IMG/VR virus record: IMGVR_UViG_3300032282_002348
Coordinates: 1-28,399 of that record
Strand: one strand, 5' to 3'
Source of the DNA: a virus
DNA: 28,399 nucleotides
Shown here: in pieces, positions 7,835 to 15,766 of the stretch
How the letters are laid out: every line of letters starts with the position of its first letter
How positions within the stretch are numbered: position 1 is the first letter of the stretch
Program-made: the position numbers and the translations under genes
Notes under the pieces: model-generated
Databases searched by the model: none
Told to the model about the DNA's origin: nothing
Seen by the model: only the letters and a program-made list of their open reading frames with translations

Positions 7835-7909
7835 GGCACAATAGTTCAATGGCAGAACACCTGTTTTGTAAACAGGCGGTTGCAGGTTCAAGTCCTGTTT
7901 GTGCCTCCA
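7835..7909 (+). tRNA. tRNA-Thr(UGU)
   Basis: Acceptor GGCACAA/TTGTGCC, discriminator T, then an encoded CCA. Anticodon stem CCTGT/ACAGG with loop TTTGTAA gives anticodon TGT; T-arm is GCAGG-TTCAAGT-CCTGT. First tRNA of the array and the only one with a clear encoded CCA. Confidence 0.95.
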
Positions 7910-7912
7910 TTT

Positions 7913-7997
7913 GGAGAGTTGGCAGAGTGGTTTATTGCATCTGTCTTGAAAACAGAAGTTGAGAAATCAACCGCAGGTTCAAATCCTGCACTCTCCG
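7913..7997 (+). tRNA. tRNA-Ser(UGA)
   Basis: Acceptor GGAGAGT/ACTCTCC with discriminator G. Anticodon stem TCTGT/ACAGA with loop CTTGAAA gives TGA. A long variable arm (class II, as expected for serine) precedes the T-arm GCAGG-TTCAAAT-CCTGC. Only CA follows the discriminator, so CCA would be added or repaired by the host. Confidence 0.94.
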
Positions 7998-8004
7998 CAT
8001 TTTG

Positions 8005-8076
8005 CATCGAGTAGCGTAATGGCATCGCACTTGCTTTGGGTGCAAGGGATTGCAGGTTCAAGTCCTGTCTCGGTGA
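8005..8076 (+). tRNA. tRNA-Pro(UGG)
   Basis: Acceptor CATCGAG/CTCGGTG (one T-G pair) with discriminator A. Anticodon stem CTTGC/GCAAG with loop TTTGGGT gives TGG; T-arm GCAGG-TTCAAGT-CCTGT. The three-base 3' end CCA is not encoded. Confidence 0.92.
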
Positions 8077-8082
8077 CTTTAC

Positions 8083-8154
8083 TGAAGGATGTGTGGTGGC
8101 TCACCAGAAACTCTCATAAGGTTTCCAATGCAGGTTCGATTCCTGCTCCTTCAA
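8083..8154 (+). tRNA. tRNA-Met(CAU)
   Basis: Acceptor TGAAGGA/TCCTTCA with discriminator A. Anticodon stem AAACT/GGTTT with loop CTCATAA gives CAT; T-arm GCAGG-TTCGATT-CCTGC. CAU could be elongator Met, initiator Met or lysidine-modified Ile. The separate tRNA-Ile(UAU) in this array makes Met more likely. Confidence 0.88.
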
Positions 8155-8160
8155 CTTTGA

Positions 8161-8241
8161 TGGCGGTATGTCCGATGGACGGACAGCAGACTGTAAATCT
8201 GTTGAGTTCGCTTAAAGTAGGTTCGATTCCTGCACCGCCAA
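8161..8241 (+). tRNA. tRNA-Tyr(GUA)
   Basis: Acceptor TGGCGGT/ACCGCCA with discriminator A. Anticodon loop CTGTAAA gives GTA. A long variable arm is present, as in bacterial tyrosine tRNAs, followed by T-arm GTAGG-TTCGATT-CCTGC. It is the only one of the array with G34. Confidence 0.92.
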
Positions 8242-8249
8242 GTTCTTTA

Positions 8250-8320
8250 GGGGCGTTCTTTCAATGGCAGGAAATCCCGTTTGCATCGGGACAATGGGAG
8301 TTCGATTCTCCCCCGCTCCA
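8250..8320 (+). tRNA. tRNA-Ala(UGC)
   Basis: Acceptor GGGGCG pairs with CGCTCC (one G-T), and discriminator A follows; the seventh pair is a T/C mismatch. Anticodon stem TCCCG/CGGGA with loop TTTGCAT gives TGC; T-arm GGGAG-TTCGATT-CTCCC. The G3-T70 wobble near the acceptor end is the alanine identity element. Confidence 0.9.
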
Positions 8321-8327
8321 CTTTTTA

Positions 8328-8399
8328 GGATTCGTAACTCAATGGTAGAGTAGCGGACTTTTAATCCGTTCGTTGTGGGTTCAAGTCCCACCGAGTCCA
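8328..8399 (+). tRNA. tRNA-Lys(UUU)
   Basis: Acceptor GGATTCG/CGAGTCC with discriminator A. D-arm ACTC/GAGT, anticodon stem GCGGA/TCCGT with loop CTTTTAA gives TTT; T-arm GTGGG-TTCAAGT-CCCAC. Confidence 0.94.
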
Positions 8400-8405
8400 T
8401 CTTTG

Positions 8406-8477
8406 GCGTTAGTAACTCAATGGTAGAGTGCTTGTTTTCCAAACAAGTTGTTGCAGGTTCAAGTCCTGTCTGACGCA
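8406..8477 (+). tRNA. tRNA-Gly(UCC)
   Basis: Acceptor GCGTTAG/CTGACGC with discriminator A. D-arm ACTC/GAGT, anticodon stem CTTGT/ACAAG with loop TTTCCAA gives TCC; T-arm GCAGG-TTCAAGT-CCTGT. Confidence 0.94.
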
Positions 8478-8482
8478 CTTTC

Positions 8483-8555
8483 GGGGGTATAACTCAGCGG
8501 TTAGAGTGGACTCTTTATAAGGGTTAAGTCGTGGGTTCAAATCCCACTATCCCTA
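8483..8555 (+). tRNA. tRNA-Ile(UAU)
   Basis: Acceptor GGGGGTA/TATCCCT (two G-T pairs) with discriminator A. D-arm ACTC/GAGT, anticodon stem GACTC/GGGTT with loop TTTATAA gives TAT; T-arm GTGGG-TTCAAAT-CCCAC. UAU reads AUA. Most bacteria read AUA with a lysidine-modified CAU tRNA instead, so this isoacceptor is notable. Confidence 0.9.
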
Positions 8556-8561
8556 TTTTTC

Positions 8562-8632
8562 ATCCAGATGGTGTAATGGTAGCACAAGAGGTTTTGGTCC
8601 TCTTTGTAAGGGTTCGACTCCCTTTCTGGGTT
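8562..8632 (+). tRNA. tRNA-Gln(UUG)
   Basis: Acceptor ATCCAGA/TCTGGGT with discriminator T. D-arm GTGT/GCAC, anticodon stem AGAGG/CCTCT with loop TTTTGGT gives TTG; T-arm AAGGG-TTCGACT-CCCTT. Last tRNA of the array. Confidence 0.9.
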
Positions 8633-8650
8633 CTTTTCAAAAAAAGCCTC

Positions 8651-8688: not shown

Positions 8689-8874
8689 ATGGCAAAGAAA
8701 CAAAAAACCCTCCAAAAAATCGACCCGACCGCCTTTTCTCACGCTGACGTAAAGCAAGCGTTGATTAAAAACTACTTCAACGGAAAGGTTGAAGGACGAG
8801 AAAAGCAAGCACTCAACTTTCTCCTAGAAATCGCACTATTCAACCTAACCAAACTAAACAACAACAACATCTAA
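8689..8874 (+). CDS. Small hypothetical protein
   Basis: A 61-residue basic protein (MAKKQKTLQKIDPTAFSHAD...) with a mainly helical composition and an asparagine-rich tail. No domain is recognised. It begins the gene block after the tRNA array, just behind a possible promoter, and its TAA overlaps the next ATG (TAATG), which supports it as a real, coupled gene. Confidence 0.6.
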   Translation: MAKKQKTLQKIDPTAFSHADVKQALIKNYFNGKVEGREKQALNFLLEIALFNLTKLNNNNI

Positions 8875-9383
8875 TGAGCCTAGAAACTAACGATTGGACT
8901 TACTGCAATCTGTGGATTTCCACCGCTGGTTGCGACCAAGAGGACTTGCATGCTCTCGATACTCTCATCGAGGAACTGCGTGACCTTGACGATGATTCTC
9001 CTCTCACTTTCTTCAACCATTGCGAAATCCCAGAGTGCTTAATCAGCACTTGTGGTGATGAAACGCCGGAGGTCGAAGCAAGCAATGAGCGCTCTTGCGG
9101 ATATCGCTACCTGCATCAGTTCACGAAGCAGGAGTGGGGCTGTGCGTTCGATGCAGTCGAAGCCAAACTTGGGTGGACTGACGACGAAATGGCTTTCTTC
9201 ACTTTCCGCACTTCCAGCAATCCTCCTCTCGGCTGGCTTGAGAAAGTGTCCACCCTCTATCCTCGCCTTATGTTTGAACTTGAGGCGGTAAACGAACTTG
9301 ACCTTTGGGACGGCTTTACTGTAATGTATGTAAACGGCAAGCAAGTGGATTATCGCCACGACAAAAAGCAGCCCAAGAAATAA
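8874..9383 (+). CDS. Api92/YubB-like ferredoxin-fold protein (divergent)
   Basis: A 169-residue protein. Its C-terminal half (EWGCAFDAVEAKLGWTDDEM, FFTFRTSSNPPLGWLEKVSTL, LMFELEAVNELDLWDGFTV, YVNGK) follows the pattern of the DUF1281/Api92-like ferredoxin-fold family: a WG motif, an aromatic strand ending in a PP turn, a short helix, then a strand with conserved acid. Such proteins are common in phages and plasmids; their function is unknown, although a role in nucleic-acid or anti-host contexts has been discussed. The next gene is a clearer member of the same family, so the two look like diverged tandem paralogues. Cysteines are frequent in the first 90 residues. Confidence 0.75.
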   Translation: MSLETNDWTYCNLWISTAGCDQEDLHALDTLIEELRDLDDDSPLTFFNHCEIPECLISTCGDETPEVEASNERSCGYRYLHQFTKQEWGCAFDAVEAKLGWTDDEMAFFTFRTSSNPPLGWLEKVSTLYPRLMFELEAVNELDLWDGFTVMYVNGKQVDYRHDKKQPKK

Positions 9384-10189: not shown

Positions 10190-10219
10190 ACCAAATATGA
10201 TTTCAAACTTTTCAAACGT

Positions 10220-10234
10220 GGAACGGTTGTAAAG
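10220..10234 (+). repeat. AACGGTTGTA motif, left copy
   Basis: GGAACGGTTGTAAAG lies in the 92-base gap before the first cassette ORF and is preceded by TTTCAAACGTG. Its core AACGGTTGTA recurs at 13537, 13762, 13847 and 13932, and TTTCAAACGTG recurs just before the 13932 copy. It is the only copy left of the cassette. Confidence 0.6.
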
Positions 10235-10281
10235 ACTAATAACTCCAGGCCACCCATACACGCAAAAAACAAAATCAACAA

Positions 10282-10530: not shown

Positions 10531-10774
10531 CGTAACACAACGCATGCAACACTTCACGCAACGAAACACGAAAAAGGTTCTTGACGCTACCATTGCAAGC
10601 AATGATGCAATGGCCCGGCACGATCAGAACTTGTATTATTGCGACGAATGTTTCACTATTTTATCGACATTACCAGGTCGCACGCTATTCTCGTATCTGT
10701 TGAGAGTGATCAAAGCATTAAGGCAAACCGTCGCAATACTTGTAGCAATACCGGTATGCGATCGCTTGCATTGA
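10523..10774 (+). CDS. Hypothetical ORF B of the amidoligase cassette
   Basis: An 83-residue ORF starting MFDVTQRMQHFTQRNTKK, with a CDEC pair near residues 41-44 and a hydrophobic C-terminal stretch (LFSYLLRVIKALRQTVAILVAIPV) that could be amphipathic or membrane associated. ATG 10502 is an alternative start in the same frame. The eight-base overlap with ORF A is operon-like. About 70 bases of A/C-rich leader separate it from the amidotransferase. No homology is recognised and it may be noncoding. Confidence 0.35.
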   Translation: MFDVTQRMQHFTQRNTKKVLDATIASNDAMARHDQNLYYCDECFTILSTLPGRTLFSYLLRVIKALRQTVAILVAIPVCDRLH

Positions 10775-10847
10775 TACTGCAACATCCGTTGCGTGTATTA
10801 CTATCAGCACAACCCAAAAAACAAAAACAACAAAACAACACAAACAC

Positions 10848-11918
10848 ATGTGCAAACTAATCGCCATGTCCACCGCCGCGTGCAAAAACACTCGGCAAGC
10901 ATCACGTCTGGTGCTTAAAATGAGCACGCTGCTCGCAGCCTCGCAACGCGATGGCTTCGGGTATGCAATCAATACGAGCGATGGCGTTTTCTCCGAACGC
11001 TACCTCGACCCTAAAACCTGCGAAGGTATGGGTGAACTCAAGGCTAGCAGGGATTTGCTTCCTGCAACGCTCCAAACGCAACTGACGTATGGAGTCGATT
11101 ACGACCAGCAAGGCATCATTCCTAGCAAGGGTGCTGTGAAGGGTTGCGTGATCGCTCACGGCAGAACCGCTACTTGCGGTAAGAACATCGCTAACACGCA
11201 TCCTTTCACCGGTTGCGAGAACGGACAGCGTTGGACTATCGCTCACAATGGTGTCGTTGAATGGAATGGTGAAAACCTTCCGTTGCAAACGACGTGCGAT
11301 AGCGAGCACCTGTTGAACTGCTTCCTCTACAAGCAAGGCGAGCAGTCCTTCCATGAAGGCATTGCTGGCTACGCTGCTGTTGTTGGCATTAATCCGCAAG
11401 GTGAAATGTTCGCATTGCGTGACGATCGTGCACCCTTGTATGTCTCGTATGTCAAGCAACTCGGTTGCTACATCATCTGCACGGACAACACGCATTGCGA
11501 GGACATTGCTGACTTGATCAGCGACTTCAACGGTCTCAAGAATAGCACCGTTACCAATCCTATGATGATTGCTCCGTATGTGAAGCATACGTTCCATGCA
11601 AATGGTGAAATCTCGTCCGTATCGTTCCCCAAGTTTAAGAGCACTATGACCTATTCTAGCACCGCTAGCGTTTATCGCAGTCTGGGTAGTGCTGGTGCTC
11701 CTGGCTTTGGTAGCAGCGCTTGGGATGACGATTACACTCCTTATCGCGCTCCTATCATTAGCACTCCTGCTACTCCTGCCGCTCCCGCTAGCACCACTAG
11801 CACCGGTAGTTCGCAAGTGCCTGACGTAAGCGATCTGGACGAACTCCGCCAGCAACGCATCAGCGAGTATCGTCGCAACCGCAACCTCAACCACAAGCCG
11901 TGGAAGCAGGGCAAGTAA
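10848..11918 (+). CDS. Class II glutamine amidotransferase (Ntn hydrolase)
   Basis: A 356-residue protein. The initiator Met is followed directly by Cys2, the N-terminal nucleophile of class II (GlmS/PurF-like) amidotransferases. Other active-site elements are in order: QRDGFGYA (33-40), HGRTATCG (104-111, glutamine-binding Arg106), NTHPF (116-120), HNG (133-135, oxyanion region) and CDSEHL (150-155, Asp151). The domain would release ammonia from glutamine. There is no PurF, GlmS, Asn synthetase or GltB partner domain; residues from about 200 complete the fold and the tail (about 300-356) is Pro/Ala/Ser/Thr rich, then basic. The amidoligase gene starts seven bases downstream, so ammonia or amide transfer to it is the natural hypothesis. 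Arginine codons are mostly CGY and serine often AGC, unlike the virion genes. Confidence 0.92.
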   Translation: MCKLIAMSTAACKNTRQASRLVLKMSTLLAASQRDGFGYAINTSDGVFSERYLDPKTCEGMGELKASRDLLPATLQTQLTYGVDYDQQGIIPSKGAVKGCVIAHGRTATCGKNIANTHPFTGCENGQRWTIAHNGVVEWNGENLPLQTTCDSEHLLNCFLYKQGEQSFHEGIAGYAAVVGINPQGEMFALRDDRAPLYVSYVKQLGCYIICTDNTHCEDIADLISDFNGLKNSTVTNPMMIAPYVKHTFHANGEISSVSFPKFKSTMTYSSTASVYRSLGSAGAPGFGSSAWDDDYTPYRAPIISTPATPAAPASTTSTGSSQVPDVSDLDELRQQRISEYRRNRNLNHKPWKQGK

Positions 11919-11925
11919 ACAACTA

Positions 11926-13536
11926 ATGCCACACTTCTACTCGCTCAACACTTACGGGTTCGGCAACGAATCCAACCAAAACAACCAAAACAACACCATG
12001 TCGCAAGACAACACCGCTAGCACCGCTAGCAATGACAACACGGGTAGCCCTGCTACCATCACGCTCAAGAACGGGATGCTGGTCTCCAACCGGCGCAACC
12101 TTTCCAAGCGTCAACTCAAAGCGTTCCAGATGATGTGCCGCAACACGCACATGAACGCTCTCACCAAAGACATGCAAGTTCACACGTGGAACAAGTTGCA
12201 CAAGGATGTTCGCAACAATCCGCATCTCGTAATGCTTGCCATCCGCTCTACGCCTTATTTCCATCCGCAGAGCGTTGCTAACGTCACTAGCGAGAACGTA
12301 GTGTTCCGAGTGCAGCAATACTTGCTTGCCAAGTCGATCACGCTCAAGCGTAAGAACAGCACCGGTAGCAATGACGTTACCAATCTGTTCGAGTATTACG
12401 CGAAGCACTCACGCTACCTGCACGCCAACTATCGCTACGAGTGCGAGCATTTCTTGCTTCACTTGGCTCACGAGAACTGTGGCGATGGTTTCACTACGTG
12501 GAGGAATGATTACGACATCTCTGCTATCGCTAATGACGTGCGCAATCAATGGGAATCGTTGCGACACGTGCCTTCTCACATCAGTCGCATCGTTAGTGCT
12601 CGACTTCGTGAGCGTGATGAGCGTGCTGCTAGCGCTCCTATCGTCAAACCGATGAAAGACCGCTTGCAAGAAGAGTATGCACGCATCTATCAAACGCGTC
12701 CTATCCATTGGGCAAACTCGTTGAGTTCTTTCCAGCATCGCATCGCTTCTCGCGTTCGTCCGGATGGTGCATGTGTTGGAATCGAGCTTGAGTTCGTTGC
12801 TGGTCGTGCTAGCAACATTATTACGTGGGATGAAGATGATTTCCCGTTTCAGACGTGGCACACGTTCAAGACGGATGGTAGCATCAATCCCAATACGTCC
12901 GATGAGGCTACTGCTCGCTATCAGGAATACACCTGCTTCATCAACGCTGACAATCCTAACGATTGGAGCGGCGTTCGCAACATTCTTGCTGAGATGACTA
13001 GTAATGGTGCACTTGTCAATAACACCTGTGGTAATCACGTCCACATTGACATGAGGCACAAGTCTCAAGCCACGTATTATCGCATCGCTGGTAGGATGCG
13101 TGATGCGTTTACTACGTGGGCGCATCGTTTGGTCTCACACAAGCGAGCCTACAATCGCTACTGTGGCATCCAGAACGATCACCACAACAACCGCTATACT
13201 GCTATCAATACTGCTTGTTGGAACGAGCATCGAACGCTAGAAGTGCGTATTGGGATGCCAACGCTCAACTACAACAAGTTGTATCTTTGGACGCAGTTCT
13301 TGCGTTACTTGGCTGACAACTACAACCGCATTGAAACCTTTGACGAGTTCATGAGCAGCGATGCACCGCTTCAACTCAAGTTGTACGCTATCAAGCGTAT
13401 CACTAAGTTTGAACCTACTTACACCGCTGCTGGTAAACAAGCCTTGGAAGGGTTCGAGAAGTGGAAGCAATCCTTGGAGTCCGTGTCCGGCATTGATACT
13501 GACTTCACTAGCGTCAACTTCACCGATCGTATCTAA
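11926..13536 (+). CDS. Amidoligase (GCS/glutamine synthetase-like fold)
   Basis: A 536-residue protein. The C-terminal half carries the motifs of the Amidoligase_2 family of COOH-NH2 ligases: GIELEF (285-290), KTDGSI (315-320), QEYT (333-336), CGNHVHID (368-375) and EHRTLEVRIGMP (434-445). The Glu and His residues in these motifs bind Mg-ATP in the glutamine synthetase/GCS fold, so an ATP-dependent amide bond is expected. The N-terminal 270 residues are mostly helical and unassigned; they may select the substrate. The start is uncertain: ATG 11926 follows the upstream stop closely, but ATG 11998 has the better A/C-rich leader and avoids an Asn/Gln-rich N-terminus. Paired class II amidotransferase and amidoligase genes are known from comparative genomics, with unresolved substrates. 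Confidence 0.88.
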   Translation: MPHFYSLNTYGFGNESNQNNQNNTMSQDNTASTASNDNTGSPATITLKNGMLVSNRRNLSKRQLKAFQMMCRNTHMNALTKDMQVHTWNKLHKDVRNNPHLVMLAIRSTPYFHPQSVANVTSENVVFRVQQYLLAKSITLKRKNSTGSNDVTNLFEYYAKHSRYLHANYRYECEHFLLHLAHENCGDGFTTWRNDYDISAIANDVRNQWESLRHVPSHISRIVSARLRERDERAASAPIVKPMKDRLQEEYARIYQTRPIHWANSLSSFQHRIASRVRPDGACVGIELEFVAGRASNIITWDEDDFPFQTWHTFKTDGSINPNTSDEATARYQEYTCFINADNPNDWSGVRNILAEMTSNGALVNNTCGNHVHIDMRHKSQATYYRIAGRMRDAFTTWAHRLVSHKRAYNRYCGIQNDHHNNRYTAINTACWNEHRTLEVRIGMPTLNYNKLYLWTQFLRYLADNYNRIETFDEFMSSDAPLQLKLYAIKRITKFEPTYTAAGKQALEGFEKWKQSLESVSGIDTDFTSVNFTDRI

Positions 13537-13548
13537 GTAACGGTTGTA
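13537..13548 (+). repeat. AACGGTTGTA motif, copy after the amidoligase
   Basis: GTAACGGTTGTA begins immediately after the amidoligase stop codon and just before the terminator hairpin. It matches the first 12 bases of the three 85-base repeats further right. It lacks the GGGGGTTTA half found 31 bases downstream in those repeats. Confidence 0.6.
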
Positions 13549-13558
13549 TGCTGGTATC

Positions 13559-13583
13559 AAGGGTGCGCAAGCACCCTTTTTTT
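13559..13583 (+). terminator. Rho-independent terminator of the amidoligase cassette
   Basis: A perfect stem AAGGGTGC/GCACCCTT closed by a GCAA tetraloop and followed by a run of seven T. It lies 23 bases after the amidoligase stop and closes the cassette transcript. Confidence 0.88.
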
Positions 13584-13761
13584 GTGCTTATTAGTGTATC
13601 AGTAGTTTGCTTGTATTGATATCTAACTATCAAAAATTGCGGTTCCATAAATGCAGCAACCGGTGGTAATGAAACCTCTGTATTTATTAAGGAAAGACTT
13701 GATTGAGTCCATCCAACCATTGATACATTTGCACCAATAAGGATTGATACATGCACAATGA
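13584..13761. other. Intergenic region with a 10-base direct repeat
   Basis: No gene is supported here. ATTGATACAT occurs at 13719-13728 and 13743-13752, each followed closely by GCAC(C/A)A, a spacing that could suit a dimeric regulator. The rest is AT-rich and without clear structure. A 78-codon minus-strand frame runs through the terminator and is not credible. Confidence 0.4.
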
Positions 13762-14016
13762 GTAACGGTTGTAAGCGTTTTCTGCACCACCTGGGGGTTT
13801 AGACGCGAACAATGGCGCTTGCACTAGTTTCATACTACCAAAACGTGTAACGGTTGTAAGAGTTTCAATCCATCACCGGGGGTTTACACCCAAACAACAT
13901 TGCTAGCACTGGTTTCAAACGTGCAATACCTGTAACGGTTGTAAGCAATCATTACCCCAACAGGGGGGTTTAAACAACCTGAAATGAGAATACAACTGGT
14001 TATCACCGGAAAGTTG
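13762..14016 (+). repeat. Three 85-base tandem imperfect repeats
   Basis: Units start at 13762, 13847 and 13932, exactly 85 bases apart. Each begins with the identical GTAACGGTTGTAAG; 31 bases from the unit start comes GGGGGTTTA (the third has six G). The segment between differs almost completely. Downstream parts are loosely similar (CGAACAA/CAAACAA, GCACTAGTTTCA/GCACTGGTTTCA). The third unit diverges near its end. The array lies between the cassette terminator and the terminator of the leftward operon, so it is transcribed, if at all, independently of any gene. Confidence 0.75.
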
Positions 14017-14451: not shown

Positions 14452-14473
14452 GTGGGGAGGTTGCCCTCCCCAC
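14452..14473 (-). terminator. GCAA-loop hairpin, copy 1
   Basis: GTGGGGAGG/CCTCCCCAC with a GCAA loop on the minus strand, 20 bases after the 14494-14793 stop and 19 bases before the ATG at 14432. It is followed by a pyrimidine-rich stretch rather than a clean U-tract. An identical hairpin stands after the next gene upstream. It may act as an attenuator, a processing site or a weak terminator. Confidence 0.5.
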
Positions 14474-14872: not shown

Positions 14873-14894
14873 GTGGGGAGGTTGCCCTCCCCAC
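14873..14894 (-). terminator. GCAA-loop hairpin, copy 2
   Basis: Same nine-base stem and GCAA loop as the copy at 14452-14473, here 15 bases after the stop of the 14910-15224 gene and followed by TTTTT on the minus strand, so it is a better rho-independent terminator or attenuator. Confidence 0.6.
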
Positions 14895-15640: not shown

Positions 15641-15766
15641 CTGCTAGAAATCTGGTGGGGGGTATATTATATCTACTATTTATATCATCTATTACTATAT
15701 GTGCCAGAAAACTGGCGCCCCCCCCAGCAGAAAACTGGCGCCCCCCCCTCTAAAAATTGGCGGGGT
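15641..15766. repeat. Iteron-like repeats (origin candidate B)
   Basis: Order: AGAAATCTGGTGGGGGG (15646-15662); an AT-rich stretch of about 40 bases; CTATTACTATATGTGCCAG (15689-15707, identical to 3977-3995); palindrome GCCAG-AAAA-CTGGC (15703-15716) followed by G and eight C; a second CAGAAAACTGGCG with eight C (15728-15748); then ATTGGCGGGG (15756-15765). AT-rich DNA beside repeated sites is the usual build of a phage origin. Protein binding has not been shown. Confidence 0.6.

Follow-up and report, generated by a model that had tools for sequence, protein, structure and literature searches.

A paired glutamine amidotransferase and amidoligase in a phage genome fragment, related to the LUZ24 and phiEco32 cassettes

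Amidoligase cassettes occur in hundreds of phage genomes; LUZ24 gp18 alone matches 282 records. An Amidoligase_2 enzyme is found with a class II glutamine amidotransferase (GATase) in phiEco32, in LUZ24, PaP3, tf and UFV-P2, in RIO-1 and PSA-HP1, in PA11, in OM43 phages and in Arthrobacter phages. The larger cassette of LUZ24, phiEco32 and RIO-1 comprises a PF14395 ligase, Amidoligase_2, the class II GATase, an ATP-grasp enzyme and a gamma-glutamyl cyclotransferase. The prediction that these enzymes modify peptidoglycan or peptides reportedly goes back to Iyer et al. 2009. The set has been named the peptidoglycan modification cassette and hypothesised to prevent superinfection (PMC5498523, PMC6256558, PMC10580990, PMC11945000). 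For phage ZRK32, which carries an amidotransferase, an amidoligase, a "glutathione synthase" and a cyclotransferase, a role in auxiliary metabolism was proposed; host growth effects of the whole phage were credited to these genes, which were not isolated (PMC10945688). We found no experimental test of these genes in the literature, and no experiment showing a cell-wall change for any member.

Ligases that work with a partner acting on glutamine or gamma-glutamyl bonds include MurT-GatD of Staphylococcus aureus and EgtA-EgtC of the ergothioneine pathway. MurT-GatD (see also PMC3267633) offers an analogy only, its folds (Mur ligase and class I GATase) being unrelated, and EgtC is an amidohydrolase rather than an ammonia donor.

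The window analyzed here is a 28,399-base IMG/VR virus record from a phage not in culture. Its relatives are mostly 43-45 kb, and the window is therefore probably a piece of a larger genome. The original prediction placed a two-enzyme GATase and amidoligase cassette at 10848-13536, and this was borne out: both reading frames are intact, they lie on the same strand with seven bases between them, and each matches its Pfam family (Table 1). Decay of the pair into pseudogenes was ruled out by the intact frames and by dN/dS among relatives. The pairing itself was already known. Profile alignment (hhalign) indicates that the pair is homologous to LUZ24 gp19 (GATase, 95.7%) and gp18 (amidoligase, 94.8%, E 5.5e-8) and so belongs to the phiEco32/LUZ24/RIO-1/Arthrobacter-phage cassette. 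The locus had been put forward as the best candidate in the window for an uncharacterised system; it is less so than claimed, since the same families occur in known phage cassettes, although the target is still a prediction in the literature.

In LUZ24 gp14-gp22 (Bruynoghevirus; also PaP3, tf and UFV-P2), as in the window, Amidoligase_2 (gp18) directly adjoins the class II GATase (gp19). Unlike the window, LUZ24 has an extra PF14395 COOH-NH2 ligase (gp16), an ATP-grasp enzyme (gp21) and a cyclotransferase (gp22). The GATase of LUZ24 has 510 aa and its amidoligase, which lacks a long N-terminal domain, 391 aa, against 356 and 536 aa in the window. The phiEco32/RIO-1/PSA-HP1/phiM6 cassette includes the same two families, and the window and its relatives carry these two of its enzymes only. 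In Arthrobacter phages Ottawa and Salgado the amidoligase likewise adjoins the GATase, and neither PF14395 nor an LUZ24-type ATP-grasp enzyme was found in them. They differ from the window in having a cyclotransferase just upstream, an amidoligase of about 325-340 aa and the reversed gene order. Their cyclotransferase genes, Ottawa gene 64 (L093, 1905-2372) and Salgado gene 97 (L094, 1710-2162), are annotated as hypothetical and match gamma-glutamyl cyclotransferase PF06094. In OM43 phages MEP401 and MEP402, which infect marine methylotrophs, an amidoligase (PF12224) and a GATase (PF13522) were reported together (PMC10580990), a likeness to the window taken from the published description, not from sequence.

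Table 1. Features of the amidotransferase-amidoligase pair and its flanks, in window coordinates
Feature	Position	Strand	Evidence
Class II (Ntn-hydrolase) GATase, 356 aa	10848..11918	+	Pfam GATase_6/GATase_4, invariant residues, PDB-matching model, hhalign to LUZ24 gp19
Amidoligase_2 (COOH-NH2 ligase, GS/GCS-like), 536 aa as called; likely start 11998 (512 aa)	11926..13536	+	PF12224, hhalign to LUZ24 gp18, Foldseek BFVD
Amidoligase catalytic domain, about residues 278-525: GIELEF, TDGSI, CGNHVHID, RYTAIN, EVRIGMPTLN	12757..13500	+	Alignment (n=24), conserved columns
Helical N-terminal domain of amidoligase, model helices at about residues 57-277, fast evolving	12076..12756	+	AlphaFold model, dN/dS
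Probable amidoligase mRNA leader: 7-bp stem with GCAA loop (GGGTTCG-GCAA-CGAATCC), then CA-rich unstructured stretch	11954..11997	+	Folding, match in relative L001; role as leader putative
Terminator-like hairpin and T run directly 3' of the cassette	13559..13585	+	8-bp stem, 4-nt loop, T tail

Pfam places the first protein in GATase_6 (E 1.1e-9; 38.8 bits, cutoff 27) and GATase_4 (E 1.1e-7). Cys2, Arg106, the HNG motif (His133-Asn134-Gly135) and Asp151, which the original prediction had singled out, are invariant in 27/27 sequences; thus the catalytic cysteine, N-terminal after Met removal, the glutamine-binding Arg106 and Asp151 and the oxyanion Asn134-Gly135 are all kept. Against NCBIfam, EgtC (1.9e-4) and PurF (2.7e-4) came out best and about level, with all matches far below the curated cutoffs. 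The structural model is moderate (pLDDT 63). It gave 56 PDB matches at E <= 0.001, down to 5.9e-9, with PurF first, followed by the GlmS glutaminase, EgtC and 1te5, and at the level of this model the protein has an Ntn glutaminase fold. We assign it, from its sequence, as a class II (Ntn) GATase with an intact catalytic set and predicted glutaminase activity. Its C-terminal tail is rich in Ser, Thr and Pro and carries KPWK close to the end.

The window amidoligase clears the Amidoligase_2 (PF12224) cutoff of 22 only barely (22.2 bits, E 1.5e-4). Tested one by one, 24/24 aligned amidoligases matched the family at E <= 0.001, the best at 8.3e-16. The main motifs claimed for the enzyme are present: E287, E289, D317, S319, E334, H371, H373, N428 and R441 are invariant in 27 sequences and E439 is kept in 96%. 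The GS/GCS-type acidic, His and Arg motifs are retained, and both proteins keep their catalytic residues intact. The AlphaFold model (pLDDT 81 overall), in which the catalytic domain covers about residues 278-520, retrieved phage amidoligases from BFVD with Foldseek, including those of Pseudomonas phage tf and Salinivibrio phage CW02, at E down to 1.5e-14. Its top three PDB matches were glutamine synthetases, all weak (E 0.02-0.14, prob 0.28-0.72); searching the PDB by profile gave no match for this protein. Motifs and profiles together identify the second gene as encoding a predicted Amidoligase_2 enzyme of the glutamine-synthetase/GCS type. Homology to the PF14395 ligase was considered and dropped, the comparison giving no useful match (2%).

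The amidoligase probably starts at ATG 11998 (Met25) and not at 11926. We favor the later start because a CA-rich leader like that of the GATase gene precedes 11998 but not 11926, and because the hairpin upstream of 11998 is near-identical in the relative L001. This GCAA-loop hairpin folds at -10.3 kcal/mol in the window and is part of 30 nt that L001 shares without a change; in L001 the loop is the same and the stem reaches 10 bp; the proteins of L001 and the window are only 49% identical. The genes at 8874, 9406, 10282 and 10848 also have CA-rich leaders in which a Shine-Dalgarno sequence is not obvious. Starting at 11998 gives a protein of 512 aa and an intergenic gap of 79 bases. The original prediction of extra N-terminal residues thus stands as regards the domain, but its size would be about 250 residues rather than about 270. 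With this start, 11926-11997 would be the mRNA leader of the amidoligase, and the peptide MPxFxSLNTYGFGNES would owe its conservation to that of the RNA. Both cassette genes are preceded by a hairpin and a CA-rich, unstructured leader free of a Shine-Dalgarno sequence (11954-11997 and 10758-10847), and relatives have short hairpins and AACCC ahead of the amidoligase start. Together, hairpin and CA-rich stretch may mark a kind of mRNA leader, or a processing element, specific to the phage.

The model of the N-terminal domain has pLDDT mostly 85-95 at residues 51-280 and is weaker near 141-150, 181-200 and 231-240. Within the clade its mean identity is 23%, versus 53% for the catalytic domain, and its dN/dS is 0.21-0.59 versus 0.03-0.24, about 2 to 10 times higher. 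In the other amidoligases examined this domain is short or absent. This fast-evolving domain may be the best candidate for target recognition. Homology of the domain to the LUZ24 GATase found no support, and the N-terminal region of a prophage amidoligase (L088) gave no significant match to it (i-Evalue 12). Among distant amidoligases (L084, L085, L087, L090, L091, L086, L088 and L092), some N-termini resemble a helix-turn-helix by eye, for example TFREIAEACGYADAGTARYAW in L091; judged in this way, the resemblance suggests a DNA-binding segment fused to the amidoligase.

Searches with tblastn against isolate phages (both proteins) and plasmids (amidoligase) gave no match, and relatives were therefore taken from IMG/VR. 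GTDB genomes scanned with the amidoligase profile yielded no relative, and close relatives of the pair were found as IMG/VR contigs only. These fall into two clades: a close one with about 11 distinct contigs, whose GATases are 51-63% identical to that of the window, and an intermediate one with about 15, among them some near-duplicates. The two genes are adjacent and on the same strand in 26/26 distinct contigs of these two nearest clades, where they were never found apart; the 26 include contigs retrieved through one gene alone. Most of the close clade has the order GATase-amidoligase, and the reverse order is found in L012, L020 and the entire intermediate clade. Because adjacency is unbroken in both orders, it is stronger evidence of joint function than a fixed order would be. 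Farther out, an MCGI-type amidotransferase adjoins the amidoligase in 8/12 loci. The two proteins diverge in step (Spearman 0.83 overall; 0.67 within the clade, Mantel p 0.0004), a correlation to which shared phage ancestry contributes, and both genes are under purifying selection (dN/dS 0.06-0.45). We conclude that the two enzymes, each of a known family, are inherited together.

What is new here, as judged by profile searches, is a two-gene form without three enzymes that the known cassettes have: a cyclotransferase, a second ligase and an ATP-grasp enzyme. When the window and 15 related contigs (34-65 kb) were searched over their full length, neither PF14395 nor a cyclotransferase (PF06094, PF13772) nor a RimK ATP-grasp came up. 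The LUZ24 ATP-grasp protein had no match in the window or in any of the 9 relatives tested, and a hidden AIG2_2 or RimK partner was rejected for window and relatives alike. The earlier remark that no classical biosynthetic partner is present agrees with these searches, which found none in the window fragment or in the 15 contigs searched whole. Positive controls detected the cyclotransferase in LUZ24, phiEco32 and RIO-1, and PF14395 in LUZ24 and phiEco32; they missed the PF14395-like ligase of RIO-1, and the control ATP-grasp enzymes fall below the RimK cutoff. The absence of partners holds for these profiles, which a strongly diverged partner could escape, and for virus records that may be fragments.

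The neighbor of the amidoligase varies among phages. It is the GATase in the window, the GATase and the cyclotransferase annotated as hypothetical in Ottawa and Salgado, and a cyclotransferase with no neighboring amidotransferase in Geobacillus GR1, Bacillus 035JT001 and L089 (L089 read by eye). Neither enzyme neighbors the amidoligase in a Porphyromonas phage, L086, L088 and L092. Since some phages carry an amidoligase without a neighboring amidotransferase, ammonia supplied by the latter is not essential to the amidoligase family. With the other enzymes left out of the two-gene form, two proteins should suffice for the core reaction, which makes the long-standing prediction directly testable; the pair is useful mainly as the simplest version of the cassette to test.

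How might the two enzymes act? Our preferred reading, held tentatively, is that they form a co-working amide-forming module, a reduced phiEco32/LUZ24/RIO-1 cassette that most likely amidates a peptide carboxylate of the host envelope. The amidoligase would use ATP to activate the carboxylate as an acyl phosphate and would then couple it to an amine. The N-terminal cysteine of the GATase would attack glutamine, most simply supplying ammonia, which would make the pair a glutamine-dependent amidating enzyme, much as a glutaminase is coupled to a synthetase in MurT-GatD or GlmS. The N-terminal domain of the amidoligase would recognize the target, perhaps a carboxylate of a peptidoglycan stem peptide or precursor, and the changed envelope may protect the infected cell against competing phages or tune lysis. 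We infer the ammonia transfer, the direction of the reaction, the target and the purpose of the pair alike. For the target, whether peptidoglycan, protein or metabolite, we follow published prediction only, with a peptidoglycan peptide as the leading guess. Peptidoglycan, modified to block superinfection, had been listed among the plausible targets from the outset, and the same prediction is in print for the known cassette. A bolder version, which we consider improbable, is a minimal self-sufficient two-subunit amide synthetase whose variable N-terminal docking domain picks different host targets in each phage and makes a new envelope or protein amide.

Gamma-glutamyl amidases, too, can have a class II amidotransferase fold, as in EgtC and in Dug3 of the Dug2-Dug3 complex. 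The bond that they cleave is also the one cleaved by cyclotransferases, so gamma-glutamyl groups may be both attached and taken off by the cassette. Perhaps, then, the amidoligase joins an amino acid to an amine, like gamma-glutamylcysteine synthetase, and the GATase cleaves gamma-glutamyl amides, the tag being gamma-glutamyl or another aminoacyl group? We regard this as a strong and close rival to the amidation reading, though somewhat less likely. The neighbors of amidoligases across phages, class II amidotransferase and gamma-glutamyl cyclotransferase, occur singly or together, and both break gamma-glutamyl bonds; a free-standing GATase fits, as do its GATase_4 match, its best NCBIfam match to EgtC (below the curated cutoff) and the presence of EgtC among its structural matches. 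However, the best structural matches are the PurF and GlmS glutaminase domains, and ammonia transfer explains the consistent pairing equally well. Moreover, the amidotransferase and cyclotransferase co-occur in LUZ24, RIO-1, phiEco32 and the Arthrobacter phages, and the two types are thus not simply interchangeable. Modification of a host or phage protein, with side chains or termini tagged and the variable N-terminal domain choosing the protein, seems improbable. The helical, fast-evolving N-terminal domain would suit it, and Iyer et al. 2009 are said, by their title, to have predicted that amidoligases of this class modify proteins, but no evident target stands out among the conserved neighbors of the pair in relatives. 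Of the alternatives we consider a metabolic role least probable, in which the pair would produce a small amide compound or redirect glutamine nitrogen in favor of the infected cell: such a role was proposed for ZRK32 (PMC10945688) but from growth effects of the whole phage, not of these genes, and the 15 related contigs yielded none of the partners sought.

Several features of the surrounding DNA were also recorded. All 9/9 clade relatives compared carry, near the pair, a homologue of the gene at 8874-9383 (34-44% identity), and the gene at 9406-9975 matches PHROG 12644, of unknown function, and weakly the same proteins in three relatives. The terminator scan found 8 in total versus 5.4 (sd 2.5) in shuffles, a modest excess only. 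About 2 kb upstream of the pair lies a ten-tRNA array (7835-8633; Thr, Ser, Pro, Met, Tyr, Ala, Lys, Gly, Ile-TAT and Gln), and an extra tRNA-Arg is found at 1425-1496 on the minus strand; the relatives of this tRNA-bearing phage are only about 44 kb. Downstream of the cassette, an 85-nt unit that includes GTAACGGTTGTAAG is repeated in tandem at 13744-13960. This motif recurs as a 16-nt copy at 13536-13551, the first base of which is the final base of the amidoligase stop codon; a further partial copy occupies 10198-10247. Identical 22-nt hairpins (GTGGGGAGGTTGCCCTCCCCAC) occur at 14452-14473 and 14873-14894, about 400 bases apart, and at 15705-15748 a 23-bp sequence is exactly duplicated in tandem, with a C8 run (CAGAAAACTGGCGCCCCCCCCAG).
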